Shown here piece after piece: positions 19,379 to 59,944 of a stretch of 64,000 bases of DNA (position 1 is its first letter; every line of letters begins with the position of its first letter). The translations under genes were made by a program, and so were the position numbers. The notes beneath the pieces are model-generated. The model did not search any database. It worked only from the letters and a program-made list of their open reading frames with translations, and was not told the origin of the DNA. This DNA is from Schlesneria sp. (lineage in GTDB: Bacteria > Planctomycetota > Planctomycetia > Planctomycetales > Planctomycetaceae), in assembly GCA_028291515.1 (NCBI GenBank), contig JAQGHU010000114.1, forward strand, positions 124,001 to 188,000, written 5' to 3'.

Positions 19379-19414
19379 TGACTTCGGTCCGACGCCCCGC
19401 GAGCCTCAGGCGAT

Positions 19415-24728: not shown

Positions 24729-24749
24729 CATCCGTCGATGTGACCGATG
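24729..24749. repeat. Interspersed hairpin element, CGATGTG loop
   Basis: Arms CATCcGT and ACCGATG with one mismatch; loop CGATGTG, whose outer C and G extend the stem. It lies 114 nt after the SIR2 gene stop and 3' of the next, leftward gene. Confidence 0.65.
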
Positions 24750-24837
24750 TTGGGTGGAGAAGAATGGCGCGAGTGGCCATATACGCGCCTCAGTTGGATG
24801 AGCACGTCGATCGTTTCACCGGACGAATGTCGCCCAA

Positions 24838-25455
24838 CTACCGCCTCTCTGGCCAGATCGCCATCGCTTGCGAGATGTCGTCAGTGTAGGCTCGCTTGGC
24901 CCCGTCTATGTCTTCCTTGCCCGGTGGATCAAACTGCTTGATGACCTTGAACTCGGGGAGGAGGAATTCGAGGTAATTCCACCGCGCCTTTTTTTGCCGC
25001 CAGTAGTCCACGCAGACCTCGTTGAGAACTGCCCGGTTGGACAGATGGTGCATCCCGCGCTTCACCAGCGCCATGACGGTCGGGGTCGCGGACGGACACT
25101 CGATCTCGTAGTAGAAAATCTCGGGGACCACCTCCTTGCGTTCGTGGAACGGCCCCTCGATTTGCGGGACGATGAAGGCGCCACACTCGGCGACGCACTT
25201 GCAACCGTAGTAGGCAGTCATCCGCGATTGCTCGGTGGGAAGGCGGTGCCATTCGAGACACGCCTCCATCTCAGCCCAGGGGATGTTGTCTTTGATCCGG
25301 TCGATGTGCCCACGTGAAAGTTTGGTTCGACTTGGACGGATCTCGCCGTCGGGCAACTTATGGATGCTTGCAGTGTAAAGTAGCACTTTACGTCTCCTGA
25401 ATCTGGCGTGCCAGTCTGCCCTCGCACCGCCACTTACAGACGAGTTTTGAATCAA
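24838..25455 (-). CDS. Hypothetical protein
   Basis: Up to 205 residues, no family recognised. The chain is mixed alpha/beta with a Cys-rich spot (Y-Y-G-C-K-C-V-A-E-C-G) near 85 that might bind metal. A GTG inside the frame at residue 24 (V-L-L-Y-T-A-S-I-H-K-L) is a credible alternative start, since the palindrome at 25375-25391 would then straddle it as an operator. The sequence is visibly more GC-rich than the SIR2 gene beside it, suggesting a separate origin. It may pair with the small gene just upstream on the same strand. Confidence 0.55.
   Translation of the reverse strand: MIQNSSVSGGARADWHARFRRRKVLLYTASIHKLPDGEIRPSRTKLSRGHIDRIKDNIPWAEMEACLEWHRLPTEQSRMTAYYGCKCVAECGAFIVPQIEGPFHERKEVVPEIFYYEIECPSATPTVMALVKRGMHHLSNRAVLNEVCVDYWRQKKARWNYLEFLLPEFKVIKQFDPPGKEDIDGAKRAYTDDISQAMAIWPERR
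25375..25391. promoter_or_regulatory. Palindrome at possible gene start
   Basis: Arms GTAAAGT and ACTTTAC are separated by AGC. The element overlaps the GTG alternative start of the leftward hypothetical gene, the position expected for a repressor site or a start-masking hairpin. Confidence 0.35.
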
Positions 25456-43932: not shown

Positions 43933-44385
43933 TTGATAGCGGGCCCAAAAGATCTTGTGATCAACGCGGTGATCAACGGCACCATCGCCTGGTGGGTCTT
44001 CGGAGGCGACGAATTCGTGACAACTTCGGGACAAGCCTCGATCTTCAAAATGTTGCTGCCAATGATGACAATCGAAGCAAGCGTGACATCCTATTTTGGA
44101 CTCGCTAGCGGGCGCGCAGAACTTCGCCGAAGAGGAGTCAGCATCCGGAAGGCAACAGACTCAAATTGGACTCGCCTTGCTTTGAGATATAGTTTCACTC
44201 AGGGGGCCATCGGAATTTTGATTTGCCTGTTCGCCATGTTGAGTGCAAGTGTGTTGATTCCGACGATCGTTCTGAAGCCTCAGTTGGTGTCGATGATCGT
44301 TGGACTAATCTCAGGAGTCCTCGGCTTTATTTTTCATTCGAAGGCCGTGATCCAAGCTGAACATTTTTTCAGTCATCCGAAATGA
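43933..44385 (+). CDS. Four-span membrane protein
   Basis: A 150-residue hydrophobic protein from TTG, with spans around A-V-I-N-G-T-I-A-W-W-V-F, M-L-L-P-M-M-T-I, G-A-I-G-I-L-I-C-L-F-A-M-L and L-V-S-M-I-V-G-L-I-S-G-V-L-G-F. The frame is open upstream to the GGGAG near the Rieske stop, so an earlier non-standard start (I-D-T-K-K-P-D-R-H-L-R-R) is possible. Family not recognised. Its end overlaps the convergent 67-codon gene by 17 nt. It probably shares a transcript with the Rieske gene. Confidence 0.65.
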   Translation: MIAGPKDLVINAVINGTIAWWVFGGDEFVTTSGQASIFKMLLPMMTIEASVTSYFGLASGRAELRRRGVSIRKATDSNWTRLALRYSFTQGAIGILICLFAMLSASVLIPTIVLKPQLVSMIVGLISGVLGFIFHSKAVIQAEHFFSHPK

Positions 44386-44572
44386 GTTCGTCATTGACGA
44401 TCGCATCAAGAAGCTCGGAAAGATGTTCGACGCAACCTTCAGACCACTGCTTCCCAGCCGCGAAATCATTCAGCTGCTGTTTTCCATAGTGCCCGACGCT
44501 GCGAATCAGCGTGTCGACGACGACGCTTTTTGTAGGATAGGCATTGTGAGCGAAAGCAGTGAATTCGATCAT
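44369..44572 (-). CDS. Small hypothetical protein at operon end
   Basis: A 67-residue acidic helical protein (M-I-E-F-T-A-F-A-H-N-A-Y...). The start is fixed by ATGA overlap with the upstream gene's stop (44569-44572), showing translational coupling as the last gene of the lipid operon. Size and acidity would suit a carrier or adaptor, but no D-S-L/D-S-I phosphopantetheine motif is present. Confidence 0.6.
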   Translation of the reverse strand: MIEFTAFAHNAYPTKSVVVDTLIRSVGHYGKQQLNDFAAGKQWSEGCVEHLSELLDAIVNDELISDD

Positions 44573-44970
44573 GGCCCCGAATCCGCATTCCCGCGTTCTC
44601 TCAACAGTTCGCACGCGCTAGCGGCCGCTTGTTTCCATGCCGTTTCGATCTCGACTTCAGTCAGCGGTAGTTTGCGTATAATCATTGGTCGTGTCATCAC
44701 GTCCTTCGACATCTGAACGGACAATGATGGTACGGCAGTTGACCCGAATTCTGAATTGGTAACATTCAAGGCATCGGCTGGATTCGCGCAATCGGTTTGT
44801 GCGGCAATCATGAGCTGCGGTGATGCATTATTCCGACCTGCTGTCCGTCCCTGAACGCGAGTTGAATCGGAAGGCGGTCGCCGCAAAATGAGCAGCAGCG
44901 AGGCGACCATCAACAGCCCAGCTGCGACCGTCGTCACGACTTTTTCGAAACGGCGATTTGAAAACCACAT
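44569..44970 (-). CDS. Single-span membrane protein
   Basis: A 133-residue protein; GGGAGG 5 nt before this ATG makes it the start (a longer frame reaches 45057). One span (V-V-T-T-V-A-A-G-L-L-M-V-A-S-L-L-L-I-L) follows a basic cytoplasmic N-terminus, then an extracytoplasmic domain with one Cys and no recognised fold. It is coupled to the downstream 67-codon gene and follows the acyltransferase by about 60 nt. Confidence 0.65.
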   Translation of the reverse strand: MWFSNRRFEKVVTTVAAGLLMVASLLLILRRPPSDSTRVQGRTAGRNNASPQLMIAAQTDCANPADALNVTNSEFGSTAVPSLSVQMSKDVMTRPMIIRKLPLTEVEIETAWKQAAASACELLRERGNADSGP

Positions 44971-45029
44971 GTTGTCCTCCCGAGAATAGAACGCATTGCA
45001 CGCTCGGCGATCCATTCCGTGCTTTAGTT

Positions 45030-46376
45030 CTATACGGTCATACGGTCGTCGACCCATTGCCGCCAGATGGACACAAACACCTGCAATAGCTCACCTGCCG
45101 ATTTATTATCGAATAATGCAGGATCGCATTGCACCGTCAACACCAAACGCCCGCTGGTCAGACACATGCCAAATCCAACTCGGCAGGCACGGGAGATGGG
45201 TGGGGTTGCGACGATGTGGTGAAGACGCATGTTGCCGAAAAGCATGGACCGATCGGCGACGGGAAAGAATTGTTCGTAACGACGCGTTTGTCCGAAGTTC
45301 GTCAGCAACGTGGTGGCCATGCAGCCGGGTGAACGGAGCAACATGGGCAACAATCCAGGAATAGTATCGGTAACTTTTAGTCCGTTGATAAAATCCATCC
45401 CCAAACGAGTTCGTCGTATGAAGCGAATCTCTTCTCTCAGGCTATTTAGCAACTGATGCCAATTGTCGCATTCCTTAATCGATCGAGATGGAAACGAGAA
45501 GCCGACTCGATTGGTGGCCGGCCCGAAACGATCGCCCGCTTCTCTCAAATCGATTGGCATCAGAATTCTCAGCCTTTGGGAAGGCGATTCGCGACCCCGG
45601 CTTTTCTGCCACAATGAAACGGCGCGAAACAGCAGGGCGAGGCCCACGTCATTGATCGAGCAGCCTCCTAGCGTCGCGGTCTTAGAAACAAAACAATCTG
45701 TTTCATCGCGGTCGAAAACGTGAGTCGCGATGACCGGGGCCGTGGAGCCGGACGGAACGGGCAGATGATTAGGAGCGGCCAAGGGCGTCGGCGTCAATAC
45801 ATGGAAACGATATGCGTTCAGGGTCTTTTGCCATCGGCTTGTTTGTCCGAAACGGCGAAAGCGGTCGCGATTTTTGAGTGCCAGCAAGTCGGCAGACGAC
45901 GTGACCAGATCAGGTTGACGACATACAAGTCGCGAATATTCGGACATAAGATCGATAATGAAGCGACCAGCGCCCAATCCATCCGTACATGAATGGTGAA
46001 ATTGAAGATAAAGGACGTCGCCCAATTGGGGCTGCTCTCGAACCCAAATCCGCAAGCCGCACTCTCGTCTTAAATCGATCCATCGACCGAGAGGTGGCCC
46101 AGGCGCGTCGGTGGTGGATTGCCAGAGGGCATGCGGCGGTTCGCTCGCCGGCTGCCAGCTTTCACGCCAACCGGTTTGAACGACCGTAGCACACAGGAGA
46201 GGGTGGCGCAACACCGCAACACGTAAAGCCTCTTGGAGTGCTGTTCGGTCAAACTGACCTTCCAGGTGCAATTCCACATAGAAAGTCGCAGGGTAATTCA
46301 AATCCTCACCGTGAAGCAGAAATCGCTCAAAAGATGTCAGCGCCAACGGCCACAATGCCCGATCCGTGTCCCGCAC
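45030..46376 (-). CDS. Condensation-superfamily acyltransferase (HHxxxDG)
   Basis: A 448-residue enzyme from GTG with AGGGAG 6 nt upstream (a longer frame starts at 46466). The active-site motif H-H-S-C-T-D-G lies about 125 residues in, within L-Y-L-Q-F-H-H-S-C-T-D-G-L-G-A. It matches the H-H-x-x-x-D-G of wax-ester synthases, PapA-type acyltransferases and NRPS condensation domains. A second family-like region is F-G-P-A-T-N-R-V-G-F. It would esterify the cluster's lipid product with an acyl or alcohol partner. Position inside the operon supports a tailoring role. Confidence 0.8.
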   Translation of the reverse strand: MRDTDRALWPLALTSFERFLLHGEDLNYPATFYVELHLEGQFDRTALQEALRVAVLRHPLLCATVVQTGWRESWQPASEPPHALWQSTTDAPGPPLGRWIDLRRECGLRIWVREQPQLGDVLYLQFHHSCTDGLGAGRFIIDLMSEYSRLVCRQPDLVTSSADLLALKNRDRFRRFGQTSRWQKTLNAYRFHVLTPTPLAAPNHLPVPSGSTAPVIATHVFDRDETDCFVSKTATLGGCSINDVGLALLFRAVSLWQKSRGRESPSQRLRILMPIDLREAGDRFGPATNRVGFSFPSRSIKECDNWHQLLNSLREEIRFIRRTRLGMDFINGLKVTDTIPGLLPMLLRSPGCMATTLLTNFGQTRRYEQFFPVADRSMLFGNMRLHHIVATPPISRACRVGFGMCLTSGRLVLTVQCDPALFDNKSAGELLQVFVSIWRQWVDDRMTV

Positions 46377-46458
46377 ACTATTCTCCCTAAAACATGGCTC
46401 TCGATCAGGCGCATGACTCGGAATCAAGCTTGAAAACAAGCGTACTCGCGCGGACTTC

Positions 46459-47884
46459 TTATGCACGCGATGTCTCGCCGTCGCGGACGGTGAAAATGCG
46501 GGACGATTGACCCCGTGACAGCCCCGCGTTCAAGCCGGATGACGCTCCGGCAATCCGAATGTACCAGAATCCAAAATCGCGCGACATCCAGACGGTCAGC
46601 AGTGTGGCTAGCATGGTCATCGAGACACCCGCCATTGCCGCCGAGAACGCTTTCAATCCTGGTGTCGTTGAGCTCGATGCGCTGATGCGTATCCAAATGG
46701 TAACCACCCCGGCACACCACACGAAGAAACACGAGAGTCCCAGATAGCCGAAGCGCAGCCCCATTACTAGGAAGGCGTTGTCAACGGTGCCAATACGCTT
46801 TATGGAGTAAAGATCCTGTTGACCCACCGGAACATTAACGGGGAATCCAGTATTGGCTTCCGTTCCAAATCTGAACAGAGCAGCCTTTCGCATGGCAAAC
46901 CCATATAAGTCGACGATATGGAGATGCAAGGAGGTTGACGACGCACTGTATTCCTCTTCGTCAATCTTGATCGTCGGCCGCTTTGATCGAGGCGTGCCCG
47001 ACCAGGCGATTAAATCTCCAGTCCATGCGTCAAGCAGTTTGATGGTCGAGTCGAACTGCCAGGTGACGCAGGCGACAATTGTTGCGCCCGCCAATGGAAT
47101 TGCCATGCAAAATCGCCGTAGCGTCAACAACCATGCGATCAGTCTTCTGAGCACGATCCCCCCTGGAATGCTCGCGACTTCGGAAAAAACACACCCACAG
47201 TGGACCGCGCGGGTCGACTTGCCGACTTGCCCACCACCACGGGCCCGTGTGACGTAACGCCCGGGTAGCGGCATAAACAGCCGAGGGAAACAACAAGAGT
47301 TGCAAGACGCCGAAATAGTTCGGATTCTTCAAAGGTCCAAAAGCGCGGTGAAATCCCCATCGCGACATGTTGGGAACATTTTTATCGACCTGTCCATGCC
47401 CGAACACCGTCTCGGCGAGATTGAGGCCCGTCAATCCTTGAACAGTTGAAATCACCGCGAAAACGATCACCATGACGACCATAAGCGGCAAAAGCGCTCG
47501 CAAGTCTTCCGCTTTTTGGATTGCGAGACGACCGGCCACATACGGGACGAACCATTCTCCATACGCCCGCAGGGGAATCGCACACGAAAAACCCTGATAT
47601 CCCCAATCAACGCTGATATGAAGCAGGATCAGGTATATCATCGCCCGGTCGACAAGCCCAAGTCGGCTGCGGAAGATCGCCAGTGGGTGCAAGCAATAGG
47701 CACCCAGCGCAGCAATTGCCACAGCGATCTGAACACTGATCGGAAATCCAAATAATTCCCAAGTCACCCACGATGGCACGAGCATGGAAAGCAGTACCAT
47801 TACTCCGACGGCAAAGTGAGAGCCGGCTTGCCAGGAGATGGTTGACAGTATCAAAAGCAGAATGAAGAGACGTGTCAACCACAT
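46459..47884 (-). pseudogene. O-antigen ligase/Wzy-like membrane protein, frameshifted
   Basis: Two overlapping leftward frames together encode one polytopic protein. The first (47884 to ~47200) has spans L-F-I-L-L-L-I-L-S-T-I, V-A-I-A-A-L-G-A-Y, M-V-V-M-V-I-V-F-A-V-I-S, and N-P-N-Y-F-G-V-L-Q. The second (~47190 to 46459) has Wzy-like V-D-N-A-F-L-V-M-G-L-R-F-G-Y-L-G-L. The phase changes between ~47160 and 47270, where T6 and G6 runs occur, perhaps twice. Either the gene is broken or these runs hide sequencing errors or slippage. Family members polymerise or ligate lipid-linked glycans. Confidence 0.65.
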
Positions 47885-47896
47885 GTGTGGAAGCTT

Positions 47897-48661
47897 TTAT
47901 GATTGGATCCCGAGCCCACCGTCGACCACCAGGGTGGCACCCTGAATCAAGTCGCTAAGCGGGCTAGAAAGAAAGACGACTGCGTCGGCAATGTTCTCAA
48001 CCTTCAGGGTCAAAGCGGACGCCAGAGTGCGCCGACGGGCGTAGTTGAACAGGTCTTGCGACCCTGGCATATTCCTCGTGGCATCGGTTTCTATCAAGCC
48101 GGCCAGAACTAAATTAAAATTGACGCCCGAATTACCCAGCTCCAATGCGAGATGTCGGACCAGACTTTCCAAGGCCGCTTTGGAGGGTCCGATCACACCA
48201 TAGTTCGGAAATGCGACATGCGAACCGTGACTGGATAAAGCAATGACTCGCGCTCGACCTTCGGTCCGCTCCAGCAACATTCTTGCCGCTTGCACCAGAT
48301 TTAGAGTGCCAAGAACATTGGTGGAAATCGCCGCATCGAAATGAATTCGCTTTGCCTCCATCAAAGGGCGAAACCCCCCGCTGGCGGCGTTGCTAACGAC
48401 AATATCCAAGCGGCCGAATTTCTCGCGGATGAATTGGATCATTTCAGCCACATCCTCGGATTCGCTGACATCGGCTTTGACAATGGCGCATCGCCGTCCG
48501 TAATGCGCAATTTGACCGGCAACTGCAGTAGCTGCTGAATGGGAGCTGAGGTAATTGACGATCACATCGGCACCGGCCTCCGCCAACTTCAGCGCACAGG
48601 CTCGGCCTATCCCTCGTGATGCGCCTGTGACCAGCGCAACCTGACCTTCTAAATTGATCAT
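47897..48661 (-). CDS. FabL-type enoyl-[acyl-carrier-protein] reductase (SDR)
   Basis: A 254-residue SDR. The start overlaps the upstream Rieske stop (ATGA, 48658-48661). N-terminal G-A-S-R-G-I-G binds NAD(P)H; N-A-A-S-G-G is the SDR N-A-A-G region. The active site is Y-G-V-I-G-P-S-K-A-A-L-E, i.e. Y-x6-K rather than the Y-x3-K of ketoreductases, which with E-T-D-A-T-R-N-M-P points to FabL/FabI-like enoyl reductases. The big synthase has no enoyl reductase domain, so this protein probably supplies that step in trans. Confidence 0.8.
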   Translation of the reverse strand: MINLEGQVALVTGASRGIGRACALKLAEAGADVIVNYLSSHSAATAVAGQIAHYGRRCAIVKADVSESEDVAEMIQFIREKFGRLDIVVSNAASGGFRPLMEAKRIHFDAAISTNVLGTLNLVQAARMLLERTEGRARVIALSSHGSHVAFPNYGVIGPSKAALESLVRHLALELGNSGVNFNLVLAGLIETDATRNMPGSQDLFNYARRRTLASALTLKVENIADAVVFLSSPLSDLIQGATLVVDGGLGIQS

Positions 48662-49842
48662 GACTCGAGCCCTTGGTCGTCGCAAAAGGGTCGACATAAG
48701 AACACTTCTTGCGTCTTCACTTCCGGAACAAATACCTTCACTTCGCGATCAACATAAACCTGGAATGCATGAATGCGTTCTTCGCAGCGACCCAGCATTC
48801 CCTCGTGCGTGCTGTTTCGCAGCCCCTGTTGAACACTCTTGAACAAGGCGCGATCCTCGGCAAGAATTCGTTTTGTGATTCTCGCGGCCAATCGTCCCCA
48901 AATTCGTGCGATCCAGCGCCGTGGGCCGCGCGATTTGCCGACGTATCCGAACTGACGAACTATCGAGCGGCAACTCTCGGGACCCGTTGGGACGAGGCAT
49001 TGGCACAGGCTGACGGCATCGGTAAAGGAGAACAACACGTTTGGAAAACAGTGGTGATGGCGGTAATCGGCGGTCGGAATTCGCCCCATCAATCGTAGGA
49101 AGCGGGCCTCCAGCCATTGAAAGATGCCATCGAGTTTCGAAGAAGCGCCGAACGGCAAACGCGTGCTAAGCGTCGTATGGTTACTGCCTAATACATGCGA
49201 CGTTTTAGCTTCTTGCGGAAAGGTACCGAAAGTCGAAGGATGGACTTGCGGTACGTGATACGCTTCCAAGGTTCCTTCAACTGGCACTTTCCAATTGCAC
49301 TCATGCTCCGCGTCCTCGTTCAAGAATGGTTCCCATCCTTGTCCGAACCGCTCGGAACAAACGGCGAAGAAATCGCCAAGGAAGTCCACGAGTAGCGGGC
49401 CATCGCCGGCCAGCGATACGAACACAAGTTTGCCGCAGGTAGAGACCCGATATTCCGCAAGCTGAGTTCGCTCGCGATCAAGAGGGGCAAAGTCCTTGGC
49501 GACCGGGATTTGTTGGGTTCGCCCCGTTTTATCATATTCCCATCCGTGGTACTGACATTTCATCTTACTAGAACGACCCGATGTCAGTCTTGTGATCAAA
49601 CAATGACGGTGCGCGCATACGTTCGACAACGCCGACAACTGCCCGTCGAAATTTCGGACCTGAATCGGAATCCCCAGGAGTTGGCACGTTAGAAAATCCC
49701 CAGATTGCGACAACTCAACAGTGGTGCCGACAAGATGCCAGCCCTTCGTCAGCAAGACTTTGTTTTCTGACTGGCTAGATTCCAGGGACCAGTAGGCCGA
49801 GGGAGGAAGGACATGTGGCAGTCGTGAATTGCTAACATACAT
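48658..49842 (-). CDS. Rieske non-haem iron oxygenase (paralogue 2)
   Basis: A 394-residue oxygenase paralogous to 42728-43891. Cluster ligands: C-A-H-R-H-C and C-Q-Y-H-G-W-E-Y. Catalytic region: N-W-K-V-P-V-E-G-T-L-E-A-Y-H-V-P-Q-V-H-P. It starts 9 nt after the synthase stop and its own stop overlaps the FabL start, so it is firmly inside the operon. It likely hydroxylates or desaturates the lipid made by the synthase. The redox partner is not encoded in the window. Confidence 0.9.
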   Translation of the reverse strand: MYVSNSRLPHVLPPSAYWSLESSQSENKVLLTKGWHLVGTTVELSQSGDFLTCQLLGIPIQVRNFDGQLSALSNVCAHRHCLITRLTSGRSSKMKCQYHGWEYDKTGRTQQIPVAKDFAPLDRERTQLAEYRVSTCGKLVFVSLAGDGPLLVDFLGDFFAVCSERFGQGWEPFLNEDAEHECNWKVPVEGTLEAYHVPQVHPSTFGTFPQEAKTSHVLGSNHTTLSTRLPFGASSKLDGIFQWLEARFLRLMGRIPTADYRHHHCFPNVLFSFTDAVSLCQCLVPTGPESCRSIVRQFGYVGKSRGPRRWIARIWGRLAARITKRILAEDRALFKSVQQGLRNSTHEGMLGRCEERIHAFQVYVDREVKVFVPEVKTQEVFLCRPFCDDQGLES

Positions 49843-49851
49843 CGGTAATGA

Positions 49852-52800
49852 TCACTCGTGAAAAATCACGCAATAATTCGTTGCGCGGACGATCAAATCA
49901 TCGTTCAGCCCGACGAGTATGAAGTCACACCAAGCGTATCGCTCTTCTTGCCGTCGGAACCGGACTTCGACAATGCAGGGTTCGCCTGGGTGCGGACGCC
50001 GTCCAAGTTCCAACATCTCAAGACTATAAGGCAGTGATGCAGCTTGCTCAATCTGCCGCCAGATCAAGACGGCCGCAGCGTACAGGCAGGCATCCAAGAC
50101 CGCGCTTGGAATCGTCCAATTTGTAACGTCGCGTTGCGATCCGGCGAGTTCAACTAGAGCCGGTGCGACGATACGACCCCAGGCGACTCGATTGCCATGT
50201 CGCACTTTTCGCAGGCATCTGAGTGATGGCCCGTGATACATCCTCGCTTCGCCCGCCGACGGATACTCCATCCGTTCCCAAGAATCTGAAGGAACCTCAA
50301 GTTTGAGCTTGCTGGGCGCGTGTGTAGATGCGAGTACTGTCGCAAGAAGACTTGTGCGATCGCGTTCCACAAGCGTTCCATTCTTGAGACGCACATCCCT
50401 TGCAAGAGAACAGCGCATGCCGCCGGACGTGGCCTCGTTAGCGAACAGGCGAATTGTTTGCGGTTCGTCAGTAAAGAATTTCAAACCGTGGACTGCTTCG
50501 ACGTTTGTTAAAGCCCCTATCGGACCCACACCTGCCACGGTTGCAATCTCGCAGATCATTTCCAGTGCGACAACCAGCGGCAACAGAGGACGGTCATCAA
50601 GACGGTGTTCAATCAGGAACGGTTCCTTCAGAGGATCGAGCGTCAGTTCCACGAAAACTCCTCTTTCGTGGGAAAAGACTTCCTTGTCATGAAGGATGGG
50701 TAGTACTGACCCCACTGCTGCAAGGCGTCCGTCGACTTCCGTCAACAATGTTTCGGCGGGGTAGAAGGATCGATAGTATCGATCATCAGTCACCAAGACT
50801 TCCGCTTCGGGGGCACCAGCTTCCAGTTCCGAGATTAAGTGGTTCAGGCCTTCCGCCGACGGCATGAACTGCATATGGACCATTTCAAGAGCTAGTCGCG
50901 TCTCTGGTTTTGTGGCCATGCCAACGTCGCCCCAGGCATGCCAGTGAAAAGCCACGGCGGCGACCTCGGGACGCTGCTTTCGAAACCAGCCGATTTGTTT
51001 GGCCAGCATTTCGTTAGCGGAAGAATAATCCGTATGACCGTTCGCCCCGAACCGACCGCTGATGGACCCGAAGCCAACGAAGTATTTTAAAGGATCGTCG
51101 CGTGTTAGCTCCATTAGTAGGAACGCGCCATCGATTTTTGCTCCCATGCATTTGTCAACATTTGTTGACTCTTTCTGTTGGAATCGAGCGTCCTTGCCGA
51201 AACCAGCACCATGCAGTACGCCCGCGATCGGGCCAGTCTGCCTGCGAATGGTGTTGAGGGACTCAGACAGCTGTTCCTGATCAGAGACATCGCACTGATA
51301 ATAATGAGCGGAAATGCCCATCAGTCGCAGTTCCTCAAGGTTGCGGTCGATCTCAAGTGCCTTCTCGAGCGCCTGCCACTCCTTAAGAGGCGATAAGCCC
51401 TTAGTTCGGGCTTTCTGCATCACGCGGTTTCGGAGCGACTTTAACTCGGCAGGCGACAGGTTACGCCACTCGTCGATAATTTGCGGAACTGGGGCCGTTC
51501 CCAACAAATTCAGCGTGAGTTTGTACCGCGCTGCTAACTGTCGCGAAACATAGGCCGAGATTCCGCGGGCTCCGCCAGTACAGACCCAATTTCCACGCTC
51601 GGGGATCGGCTTGCGGGGCGACAAAGGAATCGGCTTGCGGACGGCGCGCACTACACTGCGTTTCCCGTCCTTCCATGCGACCTCGACATCATAACTGGGT
51701 ACGGTTAGTTCGCGCCAGATGGAATCGACAATCGCGATTGGCGTTGCAGTCAATGCCGTGTCAATTACTTTTATGGGCAGGGTACGAACTCCATTGACCC
51801 AATTCTCAATTAAGATCGCTTTCAACAAACCCGCTAGGGCACCACTTTCAGCAGCGACAACTTCACTATCGAATCCGAAAGCGCCGCCCAGCGAGGTCGT
51901 GGCGACGATAGATGCTTCATCGGTCAATCGGTCGCGTTGAACGAGGCGCAACCAGTGCTGGCAGAGCCAGAAGGGCGTCATGACCCCGCGAGTCCGGCGG
52001 CGCTGCCAATGGAGTGGATCAAAGTTGCTGGCTGCATCATGATCGCGTGGCGTGACCAGAAACAGATGCGGCACCGGTTCTTTCAACCAGATTTGTTCAA
52101 GCGCGTCCACTGTTTTGGTTGGATCATCCGTAGGCTCAAGAATATGACAATTTATTCCGGCAACGAACAGCCGTTCTTGTAGCGCCTGGGCGACATCGTT
52201 ATTTCCAAGGATCAGTGCAGATCCGTGAAAGTGAGGACTGCCAACAGCCTCCGTCCATTGTGGCGTGGGCACCACATGAAGTGTATGTCGCCAAGTAACC
52301 GGCGAAAGGGTTAGATCTTCCTGCACCTCTTGCGTCGCCAAGAACGTGTGTGCAGACGGATCAGCTATCGGAGGTCTATCGAGAAGGTCAGCTTCGGCGA
52401 GGAGCAACTCCAAGCTATACCGACGAGCGAAGGCGGCGACGTTTGCGGGATCAACTTCTACTTCGTTAGCAATGGTATGTATGCGTTCGCGTTCTTCTTT
52501 TGTGAAGTAGTCCCCGAGTTCCCACATTGCAGCAAGATTTGTAGAGCCGTCCCGATCGCATGGTTGGTCCGCAAGGCGACGTAATCGGTCAATGATAATC
52601 TGAATTTTTCTTTGATCGAGGCTCAACGACGCTGGTTCATCGGCTGAATCGTGGAATGACGAACGACCGCATAGATTTTTTTCAGCGAGTCTGGCGATCT
52701 GACCTTCTGTGTCAATCCGCATGTTAGCATCACGATCGCATGACCTGTCGAGCCAATGAACAAATTCGTCATTGGCGATCAACTCCGAATGGGCCGGGGT

Positions 52801-55800
52801 CGATGCTGTCGAAAGACCGGGCGCGGCCAAGTCGTGAGATGATCGCACTTCTGCTGACACGCTCGTTAATTGATTGGGAATGGAGCGGGGGACGGTAGTA
52901 GTAACCGACATGGAGTTGAAAGTGGAACCTGCCACGTTTTCGACGATTTGACGCAATGTGCGAAGTTGAGAAATCGAAGAGAGACCAACGTCAGTACCCA
53001 CATTTGCGATACGTTCGCGCAACTCACCGAGGAGTTGGGCCTTTCGAATACTGTCGATTCCTAATTCTGCTTCCAAGTCGGCATCCAGGTCCACCACCTC
53101 TTCAGGATAGCCAGTTTGATCGACCACGAACTCGACGAGAAACTTTTCGATCTCCCGCGTGTGGGAGCGGGTTTGATCGTGCTTCGTCGGCGATTCTGGC
53201 GTATTCAGTTCGCTGAAACCATTGGTAGTCGCCAGCTCTGCATTACGAATCAATTTCGAATCGAAATGCCGGTCCACCGCTTGTGATGAATTCGCGACAA
53301 AGTCGAGTCGAAGGTCGGATGCCGGCAATTTTATCACGGAGGCGTCCTGCGCGCCATGCTCCGCCACATTCACTAAATTCAAAATGTCCCGCAGGGTTCT
53401 CACGTCTCGTACGCCATGACCGGTGCCTAGATTCAACTCTCGCATTTCGCCGAAAAGTTGAGCTCGTCTGATACTGTCGATCCCCAATTCGGCTTCCAAG
53501 TCCGCATCCAAATCGACAACTTCAGGAGGATATCCGGTCTGCTCAATGATAAAGTCGATCAGAAATTGTTTTAGCGATTCTTGTGAACCCATTCGAGACT
53601 GTGGAACGCCGACGGCCTGATCGGCACTCGTAGTGAATTGTGACACTTGCGGTGGTCGCGCGTGTTCACCATTCGGAGGTTTCGCATGAGCCTGGTGCTC
53701 TTGGGAGGAATGCCCCCCAAGGGTGAACATTTTTACGGCCATCGGCGGGACTTGCGATGAACTGCTTGCTTGACGGTTGCGGTCCCGCCGTTGGGCCGTC
53801 GCATCGAATTGCTCAACCGGATCGGTGGATACCGCCCGCAAGTCAGTGGCTGCGGCCATAGCCATCGATGGCCGCGTCGTTTTCCGATCTGTTGTTACTT
53901 CGAACGCTGCGAGTGAAGGAAGTGCGATGCTGTGAAATCCGCTGTAATCTTGTCCGACGGATAAAGCTCCAGCACATTCAAGCGCTGCCTGAATACACGC
54001 GAATTGCTCAATCGGCGTGCGCCTCGGATGATCTATACAAAGGCACGTTGTAGAACTGCCTTCAAGGATCTGCCGATTAAATTGTGTCAGCACTTGACGC
54101 GGTCCCGATTCAATCAGAATCGTGTTGCCGTCATGGACTAATCGCCTGACAAGTTCCTCGTACCGAACAGGCTCGACAAGTTGTGAAACGAGGTTGTCGC
54201 GAATGTCTTGAGGATCAGCCATGTATCGGTTCGTGACGCTGCTTAGCAAAAGCTTGCGAGGAGGCAAAAGTCGCTCCGCATCAAGAGCTTCACGCAATGG
54301 ATTTTGGGCGTGTCGCATGAACGGCGTGTGAAAGGCGCCCGGCACGGGCAACAACATGGACACGATGCGTCGTGACTTCAAGCGGTCTGCGAACTTTTGC
54401 AGCGCTCGACGATCACCGCCAACGACCGTGCGTTTCGGCGCGTTGAGATGCGTCAGAAACAATTGCTCGGCGTCATCGTTCAACAAATCAAGCACTTCGC
54501 TGTGTGATGCGCTGATCGCGAGCAAAGCTGTGCACTCGGTGCTCCCCTCAAGAATTGCCCGCGTTCGCATTCGTGTCAGCTGGACGGCTTGCTCGAGGGT
54601 GCAGACCCCCGACGCAACCAGCGCAGGATATTCGCCGAAGCTATGTCCAGCAAAACAATCCGGCCGCACACCAATTTCTTGAAGAGCTGCGTATGCGACT
54701 ACGTCTGCGACCAGCATCGCGACCTGAGTTGTCCAAAGATCTGTGTCGATGCGGTCACCGGATTCCCATGCTAAATGTGAAAACGGCGACTCATTGAACG
54801 CTACGAGGCATCGATCCGCGGCTTCAAGCTGACCCTGGGCGGACTTGGACGCCGAGATCAATGAGCGGAGCATTCCGGACGACTGCGAACCTTGCCCCGG
54901 AAACAGGACCGCGATTCGGGGCGCCGACCCACGGAACCATGAAGAATAGATTCCTTTGTCTTCCAGAGCCGACTTGGACTTCGTATCGCGCCAGTGCGCT
55001 GCCGCTTGATTCAAAAGTTCGGGAAAACTACGTCGATCCGTTGTGACAATCGCCATGCGGTATTCATGGTCGTCTGAAAAGGACGACGGATTTCGAAGCC
55101 AACTGTCCGGATCTGTCCGTGCGGCTTCAATTTGTCGGGTCAGCTCGTCTGCGTGCGAAGCCCCCATTCGCAGCGTGAAAACCGCCTTTGTGGCAGTCTC
55201 CGGTGGCGACGATAACAAATTCTTGGCAACTGCCCTTTCCCCAGTTTGCGTAGCCGCGTCCACATTCTCGATAATAGTGCAGTAGGCCTGTCCGTTTTGA
55301 TCCCGCGTCACGATGCCTTGCCGTGTGTCCGTGAGCGATGTTAACTCGCTCGGTGCAGGCGGCCGACCGGATGGTTCCGCCACCGATAGTGCGATCAGAG
55401 CGACAAGTCCATGCGCGGAACGCAGATAACCCGTCTGCCCGGCTAGAGTGGGGCATCCAAAACGATCTTGTGCGAGCTGAGAGGAGTTCGCACCGTCAAG
55501 GCACCCGCCCAATGGACCGTCGAACTCCCAATGCATCGCTGTTGGCGGCGATAAAGCTGCACGACGAATCGCACTTTCTACTGCCGTGCTTAAGTTACCG
55601 GGATGCGACGCAGATCCAATCGTCCGGATGATGGCTCGAATAGTGTCGCCGTCGCGGCGTGCGTCTGACAGACGCTTTAACAGCACCACCGCGGCACCTT
55701 CCCCTGGGAAGCAGCGACCGATCATGTCGGGGGTGGCTCCAGGAAACACCGGCAATCGATCTTGAGAAGCCAGCGCCTCGAACCCCACGAGATCCAATCG

Positions 55801-58032
55801 GCGATCACCGGTGCCACAAACAACCAGGGAACAGGCACCGGACAGCAGCAGATTTCGAGCAACGTCCAAGGATGCCAGCGACGAACAGTCTGCCGCATCA
55901 ATCGCCAATGCGCCTCCCATGAAATTAAATGTTTTCGCAATGCGGGAAGCGAGCGTGCTGGATGTAAAGCTACCTGTCTCATCAAGCAGTGCCGGCCTCT
56001 TTTCCAGAAGCACTTCTTCGAATCTGTCCAACAGTTCAACGATTGCCCCAGACGTCAGCCCGTGTTCCGTTAACGCCAAGAGTAAGGATCTTCGAAACTC
56101 CGGCAGGCGTAAGCCGACCGCCAGTTGATTTGGGAATTCGCCGCCGAACGCGCTCCCGATCACAACAGCTGTACGTTTCGAGTCATAGGGTCGTCGGTCA
56201 TACCGCGCCTCGGCAAGGGCTTGGGTTGTCGCGTCGAGTAGCATGAATTGCAGAGGATTGGCGCGCTGAATTTGTTTTGGCGGTATTCGTTGCGCTTTCC
56301 AGTCATAGACATAGTCGACGAGGTATCCACCGCGACACGTCGGGGACTGATAAGGCTGGGTGGCCCCCGACACCACGCCGATATGTTTCCGCCATCGATC
56401 AAGCGGAGCATCAGTCAACAAACTGCGTTCCGTCTCAATTAATTCCCGCAACTCTTCAACCGAGCGGGCGCCTGGCAGGACAACGCCGCGGCCAATTACT
56501 GCGAGAGAATCTCGATCAACATCGGGTATCGACGTTACGGACATTGCCGATATTGATGTCATCAAGGGTGTTTTTTTTAAATTCCCAACTGGTACATATT
56601 CATCGACGATGACATGCACGTTCAGTCCACCGATCCCAAAAGCATTGACCCCCGCGCGACGCGGCGAACCATCCGCATGCGGTGGCCACTGCACGCCTTC
56701 CGTGGGTACATAAAAGGGCAGGTGCTCCCAGGGGATACTCGGATTGAGCGCATGCAAATTAATGTTCGGCGGGATGCATCCGTGCTTAAGAGCCAAAGTT
56801 ACTTTGAGCAAGCTCGCCAGGCCTGAAGTCTCTAGCGTGTGACCGATATTGGATTTGACGCTCCCAACTGGGATGCGCCTTGCTTGCAGATGCGGGGCGA
56901 AGAACAGTCCAAGAGCTTCCATTTCGGTTGCGTCCCCAACCTGCGTGCTGGTCGCATGCGCCTCGACGTAGTCGATACTGCCTGGATTCAGTTCTCCGCC
57001 ATACGCCCGTTCCATCGCCAAGCGCTGGCCTTCTTTTCTTGGAGCCCACAGACTGCGTCCTTTGCCGTCTGTGGAAATCCCCATTCCACGGACCACCGCC
57101 TGAATTTCGTCCCCATCCGAAATCGCCTGCGATAAGGATTTAATGATTAAGACGACGTACCCCTCCGACCCAACCAGCCCATTCGCGGCCGCGTCGAACG
57201 GTCGCGATGCCACGTCACTTGCAGATTGCGCTTGAGAAAAGAGCAGCAGACTATCCGCCTTGGCCCACGACGCTCCCCCTATCACCGCGGCGTCGATTTC
57301 CCCACGTTGGATAGCCATGACCCCCAAATAAAGTGCAAGCAATGACGAAGCACATGCGGCGTCAATCGACATTGCCGGGCCGTCCAGTTTCAGGACGCCG
57401 GAAATCAACGCGGCCGCGCGGTCGGCGCTCAAGGACGAACCTCCAGCCCGGCATTGAGGGCGAGTCTCTCGAAACTCCTCGCACGCATCCTTGAGAACAG
57501 CTGTTTGAAGGTTCGACGGCAAAGATGAAAATTCAGGCACATCTCGTATAAAGTCGAATGTTTCTTCGGCCAGAGTACCCACCGTCATCTCGGTACAGAC
57601 GGGACTGCCGCCCGAGTGTCCCACGTAGACGCCGACATGTTTTCCCAACATGCCACCCGGTTCAAGTCCAGCATTTTTCCAAGCGTCAAGCGAAACGTCG
57701 CACAGTATGCGATGACAAGGATCAACGTCCTGTAACTTGTCGGCAGCGGGCCAGTTGAATTCGTGACCGGGTGGCCGTCCTGGAATGAGTCCCCCCAGTG
57801 CGGTATACGTTTTTGCGCGGCGACCCCGCTCCCGATCGAAGTATAAAGCCCGATCCAACCGATCCGGAGGAAGTTCGCCGATCGCATTTCCGCCAGCTTC
57901 CAAAAACGCCCAAAACGCCTCAATGGAAGAACCACCAGGCAAGCGGCAAGCCATGCCAACAATTGCAATCGGCGTTTGGAATGAGTCCTGATTCATTTGC
58001 AGTTTTAAGAGATCTCCAGATAACTGGTCCAT
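49852..58032 (-). CDS. Type I PUFA/hglE-like polyketide synthase, KS-CLF-AT-ACP-ACP-KR-DH
   Basis: A 2726-residue iterative synthase. KS1 ~20-460 has Cys227 (D-A-A-C-A-S-S), His359 (E-A-H-A-T-S) and His398 (N-I-G-H). A second KS-like domain (~500-930) has Asp715 at the Cys position (D-A-A-D-C-S-S) and resembles a chain-length factor. AT ~1040-1340: Ser1131 in G-H-S-F-G. Two near-identical ACPs carry Ser1520 and Ser1661 (L-G-I-D-S-I). KR ~2145-2420: T-G-G-A-R-G-I and Tyr2336. The C-terminal ~250 residues are DH/hot-dog-like: His2476 is kept but the usual Gly of H-x3-G-x4-P is Asp. Order and D-S-I ACPs resemble PUFA and heterocyst-glycolipid synthases. Confidence 0.92.
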   Translation of the reverse strand: MDQLSGDLLKLQMNQDSFQTPIAIVGMACRLPGGSSIEAFWAFLEAGGNAIGELPPDRLDRALYFDRERGRRAKTYTALGGLIPGRPPGHEFNWPAADKLQDVDPCHRILCDVSLDAWKNAGLEPGGMLGKHVGVYVGHSGGSPVCTEMTVGTLAEETFDFIRDVPEFSSLPSNLQTAVLKDACEEFRETRPQCRAGGSSLSADRAAALISGVLKLDGPAMSIDAACASSLLALYLGVMAIQRGEIDAAVIGGASWAKADSLLLFSQAQSASDVASRPFDAAANGLVGSEGYVVLIIKSLSQAISDGDEIQAVVRGMGISTDGKGRSLWAPRKEGQRLAMERAYGGELNPGSIDYVEAHATSTQVGDATEMEALGLFFAPHLQARRIPVGSVKSNIGHTLETSGLASLLKVTLALKHGCIPPNINLHALNPSIPWEHLPFYVPTEGVQWPPHADGSPRRAGVNAFGIGGLNVHVIVDEYVPVGNLKKTPLMTSISAMSVTSIPDVDRDSLAVIGRGVVLPGARSVEELRELIETERSLLTDAPLDRWRKHIGVVSGATQPYQSPTCRGGYLVDYVYDWKAQRIPPKQIQRANPLQFMLLDATTQALAEARYDRRPYDSKRTAVVIGSAFGGEFPNQLAVGLRLPEFRRSLLLALTEHGLTSGAIVELLDRFEEVLLEKRPALLDETGSFTSSTLASRIAKTFNFMGGALAIDAADCSSLASLDVARNLLLSGACSLVVCGTGDRRLDLVGFEALASQDRLPVFPGATPDMIGRCFPGEGAAVVLLKRLSDARRDGDTIRAIIRTIGSASHPGNLSTAVESAIRRAALSPPTAMHWEFDGPLGGCLDGANSSQLAQDRFGCPTLAGQTGYLRSAHGLVALIALSVAEPSGRPPAPSELTSLTDTRQGIVTRDQNGQAYCTIIENVDAATQTGERAVAKNLLSSPPETATKAVFTLRMGASHADELTRQIEAARTDPDSWLRNPSSFSDDHEYRMAIVTTDRRSFPELLNQAAAHWRDTKSKSALEDKGIYSSWFRGSAPRIAVLFPGQGSQSSGMLRSLISASKSAQGQLEAADRCLVAFNESPFSHLAWESGDRIDTDLWTTQVAMLVADVVAYAALQEIGVRPDCFAGHSFGEYPALVASGVCTLEQAVQLTRMRTRAILEGSTECTALLAISASHSEVLDLLNDDAEQLFLTHLNAPKRTVVGGDRRALQKFADRLKSRRIVSMLLPVPGAFHTPFMRHAQNPLREALDAERLLPPRKLLLSSVTNRYMADPQDIRDNLVSQLVEPVRYEELVRRLVHDGNTILIESGPRQVLTQFNRQILEGSSTTCLCIDHPRRTPIEQFACIQAALECAGALSVGQDYSGFHSIALPSLAAFEVTTDRKTTRPSMAMAAATDLRAVSTDPVEQFDATAQRRDRNRQASSSSQVPPMAVKMFTLGGHSSQEHQAHAKPPNGEHARPPQVSQFTTSADQAVGVPQSRMGSQESLKQFLIDFIIEQTGYPPEVVDLDADLEAELGIDSIRRAQLFGEMRELNLGTGHGVRDVRTLRDILNLVNVAEHGAQDASVIKLPASDLRLDFVANSSQAVDRHFDSKLIRNAELATTNGFSELNTPESPTKHDQTRSHTREIEKFLVEFVVDQTGYPEEVVDLDADLEAELGIDSIRKAQLLGELRERIANVGTDVGLSSISQLRTLRQIVENVAGSTFNSMSVTTTVPRSIPNQLTSVSAEVRSSHDLAAPGLSTASTPAHSELIANDEFVHWLDRSCDRDANMRIDTEGQIARLAEKNLCGRSSFHDSADEPASLSLDQRKIQIIIDRLRRLADQPCDRDGSTNLAAMWELGDYFTKEERERIHTIANEVEVDPANVAAFARRYSLELLLAEADLLDRPPIADPSAHTFLATQEVQEDLTLSPVTWRHTLHVVPTPQWTEAVGSPHFHGSALILGNNDVAQALQERLFVAGINCHILEPTDDPTKTVDALEQIWLKEPVPHLFLVTPRDHDAASNFDPLHWQRRRTRGVMTPFWLCQHWLRLVQRDRLTDEASIVATTSLGGAFGFDSEVVAAESGALAGLLKAILIENWVNGVRTLPIKVIDTALTATPIAIVDSIWRELTVPSYDVEVAWKDGKRSVVRAVRKPIPLSPRKPIPERGNWVCTGGARGISAYVSRQLAARYKLTLNLLGTAPVPQIIDEWRNLSPAELKSLRNRVMQKARTKGLSPLKEWQALEKALEIDRNLEELRLMGISAHYYQCDVSDQEQLSESLNTIRRQTGPIAGVLHGAGFGKDARFQQKESTNVDKCMGAKIDGAFLLMELTRDDPLKYFVGFGSISGRFGANGHTDYSSANEMLAKQIGWFRKQRPEVAAVAFHWHAWGDVGMATKPETRLALEMVHMQFMPSAEGLNHLISELEAGAPEAEVLVTDDRYYRSFYPAETLLTEVDGRLAAVGSVLPILHDKEVFSHERGVFVELTLDPLKEPFLIEHRLDDRPLLPLVVALEMICEIATVAGVGPIGALTNVEAVHGLKFFTDEPQTIRLFANEATSGGMRCSLARDVRLKNGTLVERDRTSLLATVLASTHAPSKLKLEVPSDSWERMEYPSAGEARMYHGPSLRCLRKVRHGNRVAWGRIVAPALVELAGSQRDVTNWTIPSAVLDACLYAAAVLIWRQIEQAASLPYSLEMLELGRRPHPGEPCIVEVRFRRQEERYAWCDFILVGLNDDLIVRATNYCVIFHE

Positions 58033-58106
58033 TTCTTGACCACGGAACTATTTCCATCAACCTTTTCAGCGTAAATGCAGCGAAGCTAATGGCAGGCACC
58101 ATATCA

Positions 58107-59609
58107 TCACCGACTGAGACCGCTACTCGCCAGCCGAATTGCTTGTTGGAGTTCTGTAAATAGTCGGACGGTCGCTCCGACTGGTCGTCCTTTCGCTTGC
58201 ATAATGATCGCGCCGCGTGCCATAGCATCAGCAGTTTCGACCTTCGCGTCGACGACCAACGAAAAAGTTTCGGCTGAGCAATATGCCGAAGCGTCCCAAT
58301 TTGGGTCGATTCCTCGATCCAGACAGACCGGAACATTATTAAGGAACCCGATTTGCCATGCGCCGCCGCCCCGACCGCTCACCTCGAGTTGCAGCCAGTC
58401 GTTAGCCTGAGCGCTCGTCGTCGAGACATCCGGAAAGACCGACTGCAGATGCTCTTCAATTCTAACTGCGGATTCTGGCTGCGTTCGTGGCATCACAAAC
58501 CGATGTCGGATTGCGTACGTCATCATTTGAACCAACGTCGCATCGTCCATCTCAGGGCAGCGAATTCCAGGAGCGAATTTGACCGTTTGAGAGCAATCAA
58601 ATTCGGGGTCGCTGCTAAAGTAAGATTGGTAAATTCCCAGAGTATTGTTGAAAGAATCGCTTTCGAACTGCGATGGGGCGGGCGCTCCCCAATCGCCGAC
58701 TTTTCCGTGAACTGCATTCAGCGAGTCTTGCAGAGCGTTCATGATCCTCGCGACGAGCGTCGGTCGAGGATTGGTCAAATGAAACGTCCGGCCGGCCGAA
58801 TCCGGACACCGCATCAGATGCCAGATCACCCTCGAAACCCAATCGACCGGGACAAGATTTTTCTCCTCAGAACCCGTCAGACCAACGGCATCCAGTGGAG
58901 GAAATTCGTGAAGGCGATTTGAGATTGCATAGAGAATCAAGAGTTGAAGAGGGGCATACAGCCCCCGAAAACTCGTCGTACGTCCCGTCGAATGCTCGCC
59001 AACGACTATGGACGGCCGATAGATCGTTGCTCTCCGGGGACGACTGAATTCTTGTACCAGCTTTTCCGCATCGAACTTACTACGTTCGTACTCGTTCTTG
59101 AATGATTGACAGCCCGAAAGGTCCGATTCCAGAATCCTGTCGTTTCGCAAGCCGCACACAAAGGCTGTGGAGACATGATGAAAATCATCCAAGCCAATAT
59201 CGCAGCAAAGTTCGAGCAGATTCCGCGTCCCCTCGACATTAGTTAACCACGGCTCTCTGCTTCCGGGACTAGAGGTGAACGTGACGCTTGCTGCACTGTG
59301 AATGACCGACGCGCATCGTCGAGATAACCACTGGCGGTCCGCACGACTCAATCCTAAGCCCGATTCAACCAGACTTCCTTCAAGGACAGTCGGACGAACA
59401 AACTTGCGTTGAAGTTGGTTCTCGAGATTTTGAAGTAGGCGCTCAATACGAGAATGACCGCTCTCATGTCGACTGGGCCGGACGAGGACCGCCATTGGTG
59501 ATCCATTGATCAGGCCGTCCCTGAGAAGATATTGACCAACAAAACCCGTAGCGCCTGTTAGAAATACGCCGCATGGAACTGTAGAAGACCGCAGCACCAT
59601 AATTTCCAC
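58107..59609 (-). CDS. Thioester reductase-like / fatty acyl reductase (extended SDR)
   Basis: A 500-residue protein. N-terminal Rossmann motif T-G-A-T-G-F-V-G and catalytic Y-E-R-S-K (Y-x3-K) with upstream H-V-S-T-A-F place it among NAD-binding-4 thioester reductases, which release ACP- or CoA-bound chains as aldehydes or alcohols. The last ~130 residues form a separate domain (P-D-V-S-T-T-S-A-Q-A-N-D-W-L-Q-L-E...) of unknown fold. GTG (59609) or ATG (59600) starts it. As first gene of the operon, 75 nt before the synthase, it is the likely reductive off-loader. Confidence 0.85.
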   Translation of the reverse strand: MEIMVLRSSTVPCGVFLTGATGFVGQYLLRDGLINGSPMAVLVRPSRHESGHSRIERLLQNLENQLQRKFVRPTVLEGSLVESGLGLSRADRQWLSRRCASVIHSAASVTFTSSPGSREPWLTNVEGTRNLLELCCDIGLDDFHHVSTAFVCGLRNDRILESDLSGCQSFKNEYERSKFDAEKLVQEFSRPRRATIYRPSIVVGEHSTGRTTSFRGLYAPLQLLILYAISNRLHEFPPLDAVGLTGSEEKNLVPVDWVSRVIWHLMRCPDSAGRTFHLTNPRPTLVARIMNALQDSLNAVHGKVGDWGAPAPSQFESDSFNNTLGIYQSYFSSDPEFDCSQTVKFAPGIRCPEMDDATLVQMMTYAIRHRFVMPRTQPESAVRIEEHLQSVFPDVSTTSAQANDWLQLEVSGRGGGAWQIGFLNNVPVCLDRGIDPNWDASAYCSAETFSLVVDAKVETADAMARGAIIMQAKGRPVGATVRLFTELQQAIRLASSGLSR

Positions 59610-59944
59610 GGCTAAACTGGTTCACACTGGATCGAGAGCATTGCCTCCACAATATACGGCCGTTCTGGTGATTGCACGAACAACGAAAGCACTTTCATCC
59701 GTTTTTCCCATCGACTTCGGCTATCCGTTGTTTCTCGCGAACAGTCTTTATTAAGGGTTGAAGCGGTCACAATTCATTGTAGGCTGCCTTTGCATCATCG
59801 GTCGAACCAATTGGGTTACCGATGTGCACGGACGCCTTCGTCGTCCGCCGAAGCGTACACGGGGTTTCTACGCTTGGTCAGCGGGCTTTGGTTCCAGTTT
59901 TTTGAACGACGATCTCGTGCCGATCGAGATTGCGAGGGGGATCC
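59610..59944. other. Divergent promoter region of the lipid operon
   Basis: Between the leftward thioester reductase gene and a rightward exported protein gene. No gene inside. The only structure noted is the nested palindrome at 59796-59824. Confidence 0.5.
59796..59824. repeat. Nested hairpin related to the interspersed family
   Basis: Outer arms CATCGGT and ACCGATG are identical to the interspersed elements, but the loop is 15 nt and itself contains AACC-AATTG-GGTT. It lies in the divergent region upstream of the synthase operon. Confidence 0.5.

Follow-up and report, generated by a model that had tools for sequence, protein, structure and literature searches.

A planctomycete gene cluster built on an iterative ketosynthase-chain length factor synthase: a candidate route to a wax-like envelope lipid

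What lipid, if any, is made by a gene cluster that joins a 2726-residue iterative synthase to a thioester reductase, a FabL-like reductase, Rieske oxygenases and an acyltransferase? The question is raised by a stretch of 64,000 nucleotides from Schlesneria sp. (GCA_028291515.1, contig JAQGHU010000114.1, positions 124,001-188,000 of the forward strand), hereafter called the window. A preliminary description of this stretch had proposed a cluster of no known type, whose product would be a reduced, oxygenated and acylated long-chain lipid, perhaps linked to a glycan. The leftward gene run is indeed found at 44369-59609, with all its named open reading frames (ORFs) and their coordinates, although one gene of the set proved broken and two others proved to be pieces of a single gene. 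The reading favoured here, with slightly better than even confidence, is that the cluster would make a wax-like envelope lipid by iterative chain building, reductive release, hydroxylation and acylation. The genes, their domains and catalytic residues, the clade of the synthase and the co-occurrence of its partners are observed directly. The features concerned are the following.

58107-59609, minus strand: TER, thioester reductase with a reductase (R) domain, an extended short-chain dehydrogenase/reductase (SDR); predicted to release an aldehyde or alcohol
49852-58032, minus strand: SYN, 2726-residue iterative lipid synthase
48658-49842, minus strand: RIE1, Rieske non-heme iron oxygenase, catalytic subunit
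47897-48697, minus strand: FabL, predicted FabL-type enoyl reductase (ER) acting in trans
47030-47884, minus strand: O-antigen-ligase-like gene, N-terminal part, frame broken; 30-44% identical to six relatives
46459-47274, minus strand: O-antigen-ligase-like gene, C-terminal part, in another frame; 25-45% identical to the same six relatives
45030-46466, minus strand: WSAT, HHxxxDG acyltransferase of the Condensation/PapA/WS-DGAT superfamily
44569-45057, minus strand: remnant, N-terminal end of a second HYP348-family copy (profile E 3.2e-5, positions 16-100)
44369-44614, minus strand: remnant, other (C-terminal) end of this decayed copy (profile E 1.4e-9, positions 293-366)
42728-43891, plus strand: RIE2, Rieske oxygenase facing the operon
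59930-60976, plus strand: HYP348, member of a 348-residue family of unassigned fold, partner of this synthase type
61017-62321, minus strand: Wza-like polysaccharide export protein (Poly_export 33.6 bits, cut-off 28)

The genes are closely spaced, with gaps of 74 nt between TER and SYN, 9 nt between SYN and RIE1 and 12 nt between FabL and the ligase-like gene, and an overlap of 40 nt between RIE1 and FabL.

The synthase and its partner enzymes

SYN is organized as KS-CLF-AT-ACP-ACP-(AAT trace)-psiKR-KR-DH, that is, ketosynthase, chain length factor, acyltransferase, two acyl carrier proteins, a trace of an AAT domain discussed below, ketoreductases and dehydratase. The KS and its C-terminal part, the AT, the two ACPs, the KR and both halves of a polyketide synthase (PKS)-type DH score over their Pfam cut-offs. 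In the first KS, the cysteine and both histidines are kept in 21/21 aligned synthases, the window's included. The second KS is read as a CLF because its cysteine column never holds cysteine (0/21): Asp occupies it in 16 sequences, among them that of the window, Glu in three, Asn in one and Gly in one. PKS_DH_N is matched in 16/16 alignment members and FabA weakly in three, the window protein not among them. In NCBIfam, the best match of SYN is TIGR02813 (PfaA), at 629.2 bits for a cut-off of 1010.1. Two PF01648 matches, pointing to phosphopantetheinyl transferases (PPTases), occur elsewhere in the genome. These domains, the KS residues and the loss of the CLF cysteine support the proposed lipid-type iterative synthase with KS and CLF in cis, its activity being predicted.

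TER matches NAD_binding_4 (1.2e-44), and the YxxxK and GxxGxxG motifs are kept in all of the 45 aligned rows having the column. A structural model of the protein (mean pLDDT 87.7) has as its top Foldseek match the R domain of MxaA, from the myxalamid pathway (4w4t, E 2.4e-22). The myxalamid R domain is alcohol-forming. From the modelled fold and the SDR catalytic residues, TER is most probably a thioester reductase, and the reductive release put forward in the preliminary description gains support as a predicted activity. A C-terminal SCP2 domain is detected at E<=0.5 in 10/29 alignment members (best 6.3e-6), the window protein not being one of them. The best PDB match of FabL is B. subtilis FabL (3.7e-55, 190.7 bits), the next scoring 5.5e-35 and 124.7 bits. 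Its Y-x6-K motif, the signature spacing of FabL according to PMC9260719, is kept in 34/34 aligned ORFs; the next best SDR of the same genome is 34% identical. With this motif and scores above FabG, the protein would be of the FabL type, as first proposed for a reductase in trans, and enoyl-ACP reductase activity is predicted.

Both RIE1 and RIE2 pass the Rieske and Ring_hydroxyl_A cut-offs (1.8e-15 and 5.6e-22 for RIE1). In the Rieske alignment, the CxH/CxxH cluster ligands are kept in 23-24 of 25 rows; at the ExxHx4H...D iron site, the glutamate and both histidines are present in 25/25 rows and the aspartate in 24/25. PF00848 is matched three times in the genome, RIE1 and RIE2 accounting for two of these matches. 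These data argue for the proposed oxygenation, as a predicted activity. The second, facing enzyme is present as described but lies outside the 44369-59609 run, and a pair of Rieske genes is not the rule. Two ORFs are seen only in the window, L017 and L095 (L numbers designate loci, G numbers genomes), that is, in 3/13 of the Rieske-positive loci of the window's clade (n=16); L016 has a second place matched by tblastn, yet a single ORF.

WSAT matches TIGR02946 far below its cut-off (5.2e-8). Among 37 aligned sequences, the H, H, D and G of the HHxxxDG motif are kept in 34, 37, 37 and 35, which supports the proposed HHxxxDG acyltransferase and a predicted acylation step. The five relatives scanned have Condensation, PapA_C or WS_DGAT_cat matches, mostly weak or below cut-off: those of L101 and L066 pass Condensation, the latter also barely passing WS_DGAT_cat, and three of the five pass none.

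The remaining genes of the run are damaged. The two ligase-like ORFs lie in different frames and match successive parts of six single-frame relatives of 450-578 residues; we read the change of frame as lying near 47190-47216, and the break may be a sequencing error. The relative in L016 passes the Wzy_C cut-off (53.4 bits for 31.7) and that in L096 falls below it. Hence the O-antigen-ligase-like protein of the preliminary description stands as a homologue, but the window cluster holds no intact Wzy_C (O-antigen ligase) gene. The two small proteins listed there as separate genes match opposite ends of one 370-position profile, for which nine relatives were used together with HYP348, the intact paralogue in the window; the best of 400 shuffled controls gave E 0.03. 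Judged by these matches, they are the N- and C-terminal ends of a single decayed HYP348-family gene.

Distribution of the family and surroundings of the cluster

When the aligned synthases served as query against the GTDB collection, 180 relatives were found in 232 candidate stretches, of which the best 80 were kept. Among these, all relatives with phylum-informative names belong to Planctomycetota, several names of metagenome-assembled genomes (e.g. 'Candidatus Kuenenia', 'Gimesia') not being trusted. A tree of 97 rows (95 KS-CLF regions of the family, the window's included, and two outgroups from its own genome) places the window in a clade of 18 rows with an SH-aLRT of 100; this tree leaves out L094, one row of L020, L117 and L097, which are partial. 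In a KS tree, 27 family rows form one clade (SH-aLRT 99.7) against 18 reference and own-genome rows. The family thereby stands apart from Persicobacter PfaA and PfaBC, from the phenolic-lipid-type synthases of Beijerinckia and Methylosinus, from enediyne SgcE, from the type H gene of Allorhizobium and from the genome's own synthases. Both trees come from quick IQ-TREE runs in which SH-aLRT is the sole branch support. The KS set included SgcE and Azospirillum, left out two FabF-type rows of the genome and had no HglE, since no named HglE occurred in the GTDB contig scan or among the plasmid records listed. The KS phylogeny suggested earlier as a check therefore places the family outside the polyunsaturated fatty acid (PUFA) group, and HglE stands outside the comparison. 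Identity of the window KS amounts to 31-40% with 15 lipid or PKS rows of the reference set or the genome, and to 29-32% with three FabF-type rows.

Matches at E<=1e-150 occur in at least 18 of 391 sampled genomes of the phylum, in three families of the same class, a lower bound as two candidates were scored per genome. Within the window's genus, 3/15 genomes have a synthase of the window type. Because the set recurs in other genera, it is more than a chance assembly; the cluster is a recurrent planctomycete type rather than a one-off. PPTase genes between synthase and FabL are seen in other branches (L018:3233-4294, L027:5270-6010), and the window-clade loci searched gave no match to a gene of this kind.

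The window's genome (G000) itself provides a contrast. At another locus it encodes a PfaA scoring 1665.3 bits with TIGR02813, with an NMO-type ER as its neighbour. A KS-AT protein containing three FabA-like domains is encoded on a different contig, the contigs of these Pfa-like genes being C63 (L131) and C5 (L132). Since they exist separately, the PUFA-type system of the genome is distinct from the present cluster. The contrast with the partner enzymes of PUFA synthases drawn in the preliminary description thus holds inside one genome, with NMO-type ER and FabA-like domains on one side, and FabL and a PKS-type DH on the other.

Co-occurrence was counted in the 47 loci that reach 15 kb, that of the window being one of them, after 13 duplicate loci had been dropped; L112 and L122 were left out for their incomplete synthases, and L097, absent from the tree, was assigned to the window clade through G071 (which scores 1540 with the clade and 1261 outside). 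FabL is found in 42 loci, TER in 33, WSAT in 22 and Rieske genes in 18. In the 16 loci of the window clade, TER occurs in 14, FabL in 13, Rieske genes in 13, WSAT in 15, the ligase-like gene in seven and HYP348 in nine; in the other 31, the corresponding figures are 19, 29, 5, 7, 0 and 0. TER accompanies WSAT in 20/22 loci, and in the exceptions, L049 and L097, the contig starts inside TER (leaving a 163-residue end piece) or inside the synthase. In Blastopirellula marina, a cultured carrier, locus L066 holds ORFs for SYN, FabL, TER, a Rieske oxygenase and WSAT. With the ligase-like gene in 7/16 clade loci and broken here, the suggested glycan link of the product receives no direct support.

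HYP348, which the preliminary description did not include, is intact and paralogous to the decayed gene at the operon's end. A single-query search at E<=1e-8, which may miss distant copies, found it in 13 of 170 family genomes, from five genera. Sixteen genomes hold a window-type synthase, 10 of them assigned by the tree and six by best match, and every one of the 13 belongs to this group; HYP348 is in none of the 154 other family genomes. The window-type genomes without it are G066, G116 and G021. In G126, HYP348 and the synthase lie on different contigs, and because of this the tie is an association beyond mere linkage. A fold search gave no PDB match at E<=0.001 (best E 0.035; probability <0.2 throughout the top 50). 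From its N-terminus, the protein is perhaps exported.

Around the cluster, a Wza-like gene is also found in L022, L026 and L097, a suggestive association; the window's protein is 66% identical to the L022 neighbour, in a different gene arrangement. A promoter and terminator scan returned nothing usable (11 found for 10.4 expected, and 22 for 20.4). Elsewhere, the window contains a 1448-residue ORF without Pfam match at 1e-5 (20269-24615), an ORF combining a cytochrome P460 and a cytochrome c domain (11030-12469), and a PSCyt1-PSCyt2-PSD1 protein followed by a DUF1501 protein (34888-39785), a gene pair typical of planctomycetes.

An embedded AAT domain and the release chemistry

Many relatives of SYN carry, between the last ACP and psiKR, an AAT/C45 domain that had escaped the preliminary description. 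PF03417 passes its cut-off in L033, L027 and L079, and Pfam finds it in 5/16 alignment members but not in the window SYN. A custom model detects the domain in 40 synthase ORFs at E<0.01, partial ORFs and the seven seeds included. It is present in L109, on the first branch of the family, and also, within the clade of the window, in L095 and L096; in L016 and L017 a stub is left. With the first model, made from seven full domains, the window gave E 0.035, which is not separated from a shuffled control at 0.014; a second, which took in stubs of relatives and excluded the window, gave E 7.9e-4, reached by 0/100 shuffles. This second model was negative for L028, L049, L070, L051, L088 and L025. The window SYN would thus hold at most a trace of AAT, and no domain.

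The AAT cysteine, which we take by analogy to be the nucleophile, is intact in 14/47 loci. TER is present in five of these 14, versus 28 of the 33 loci where the cysteine is lacking or undetected (Fisher p 0.0015, too small a value as the loci are related and not independent). The nine cysteine-bearing loci without TER include three with GH3, four with an aminotransferase of class I/II, one with a sulfotransferase, and L109 with none of these. GH3 has no match in the 38 loci outside these nine. The aminotransferase domain is strong (>700 bits) only in the four, which are close relatives of the Stieleria type where it is fused to a second KS-CLF protein, and weak (54-57 bits) in seven others. 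Because TER is rarer where the AAT cysteine is intact, and GH3 or aminotransferase genes occur there, release chemistry seems to have been exchanged within the family; the five loci having both the cysteine and TER are exceptions to this reading.

The GH3 acyl-amido synthetase genes (L033:16984-18630, L035:17711-19420, L060:21347-23155) lie beside AAT-Cys synthases without TER, and amino-acid conjugates are a possible product. In Stieleria/Rhodopirellula clusters (L079:10037-15292 and 16928-25060; also L071, L076 and L078), a KS-CLF-ACP-aminotransferase I/II protein (PF00155 at 1.5e-44 in L079, 5.6e-45 in L071) accompanies a KS-CLF-AT-AAT-KR-DH synthase and FabL, with no TER match; they possibly make a sphingoid-like lipid. 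In L021, a sulfotransferase gene (1806-2933) adjoins a family synthase with intact AAT cysteine.

Taken together, a tentative picture may be drawn, at somewhat less than even confidence, in which these iterative lipid synthases form a planctomycete family not described before, with exchangeable off-loading. An ancestral AAT would act by hydrolysis or acyl transfer, followed by GH3 amino-acid conjugation or by formation of a sphingoid-like head through an alpha-oxoamine-synthase-like domain. In the window's branch it would be dead or shrunk, and TER with a PapA-like acyltransferase would instead lead to a fatty alcohol ester. The family shows an N-terminal nucleophile (Ntn)-type acyltransferase domain within a fatty-acid-type megasynthase, and offers a testable link of gene set to release chemistry: acid or amide, amino-ketone, alcohol ester.

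Proposed pathway and comparison with known systems

From the gene set we infer which reactions take place and in what order, as well as the chain length and the product. An aliphatic chain would be built iteratively from malonyl units, the AT loading and the KS condensing with the CLF as partner, on ACPs activated by a PPTase encoded elsewhere in the genome. KR and DH would process the chain and FabL would reduce the enoyl group in trans. Reductive release by TER would then free the chain from the ACP in the form of an alcohol (or aldehyde); the chain would be hydroxylated by RIE1, and here also by RIE2, and WSAT would esterify the alcohol or alcohols with a second acyl group. PapA-type enzymes acylate mycobacterial diols. 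HYP348 would act after synthesis, perhaps at the envelope, and may point to lipid placement; FabL would represent a small dedicated ER partner. A wax-like lipid is preferred because of the domains and active-site residues, the FabL match, the TER fold and the WSAT-TER pairing, and because of the enrichment of Rieske genes (13/16 versus 5/31) and of HYP348 (13/16 versus 0/154) and the PPTase matches. The reduced, oxygenated and acylated lipid first proposed is in this sense partly upheld, at the level of predicted activities, and its glycan link is not.

Several observations weigh against this pathway. TER reaches 133.5 bits, below the TIGR01746 cut-off of 213.35, FabL 255.2 bits, below the NCBIfam FabL equivalog cut-off of 328, and for the window WSAT Pfam gives nothing at E<=0.001. 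Neither a ferredoxin nor a ferredoxin reductase appears among the cluster ORFs compared with Pfam, the search being confined to these ORFs. L096 and L088 lack a Rieske match in the locus; L022 and L026, from the window's own genus, lack a FabL match. Gene decay is visible at the operon's end. Finally, eight short loci have a WSAT ORF without a TER ORF (L051, L082, L094, L108, L113, L116, L118, L123), but these, being under 15 kb, do not decide because all are cut inside the synthase.

Other explanations may be envisaged. That SYN is a divergent Pfa synthase, with polyunsaturated chains or precursors of olefins as its products, would account for TIGR02813 being its best NCBIfam match and for the shared logic of KS, CLF and tandem ACPs; it is improbable in view of the score below cut-off, the KS outside the PfaA and PfaC groups, the PKS-type DH, the FabL-like rather than NMO-type ER and the separate Pfa-like genes of the genome. 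An hgl-type system, in which a thioester reductase frees a long-chain alcohol that is then glycosylated, has a somewhat stronger claim while still being unlikely. According to PMC11804610, such islands combine KS, CLF, AT, ACP, KR, DH, ER and thioester reductase, and ligase-like and Wza-like genes lie near SYN; yet the operon ORFs show no glycosyltransferase match, an acyltransferase stands in its place and the ligase-like gene is broken.

Release might also be non-reductive, TER acting on another substrate and the acylated alcohol coming from another source. The five AAT-Cys loci that also have TER imply that TER need not release the chain there, and an SCP2-like domain could serve a diffusible substrate; the concentration of TER in loci with the AAT cysteine lacking or undetected speaks against this scenario, which we consider doubtful. 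It is equally doubtful that the cluster is decaying in this strain and gives an altered final product or none: the frameshifted ligase-like gene and the gutted second HYP348 copy would fit, but SYN, TER, RIE1, RIE2, FabL and WSAT are open with their catalytic residues kept, and one HYP348 is intact. The wax-like envelope lipid thus stays the preferred product.

Planctomycete genomes hold many large synthase genes and few assigned lipids. In mycobacterial phthiocerol diesters, a polyketide-type diol is acylated by PapA5; here the synthase is another one, release would be reductive, Rieske enzymes are added and PapA_C is matched only below cut-off. The phenolic-lipid-type synthases (Shulse type P; Beijerinckia, Methylosinus) resemble SYN as large single proteins with KS, AT and KR, but they have their own adjoining '3-oxoacyl-ACP synthase III C-terminal domain' and PPTase genes and a KS outside the family. 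In the open-licence literature, no title or abstract among the matches listed describes this gene set, which is weak evidence, or an Ntn-type acyltransferase in a fatty-acid-type megasynthase, and the phrase '6-aminopenicillanic acid acyl-transferase' was not found among the matches listed. PMC13190842 reports one 'hglE-KS' cluster in a planctomycete. Heterocyst glycolipid (hgl) systems share with the cluster a CLF-bearing lipid synthase, a thioester reductase and, as predicted here, a long-chain alcohol (PMC11804610); the cluster differs by its putatively ester-forming acyltransferase, its Rieske oxygenase and an operon without glycosyltransferase match, HglE being absent from the KS tree. 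The text of PMC3098273 (Shulse and Allen, 2011), without its architecture figure, gives no type with this gene set among types A-T. The PUFA synthases classified there share KS, CLF, malonyl AT, tandem ACPs, KR and an iterative logic with SYN. In contrast to them, the window has a single KS-CLF-AT-ACP-ACP-KR-DH protein with a PKS-type DH, accompanied by a FabL-type ER, TER and an acyltransferase, and its KS belongs to a separate clade.

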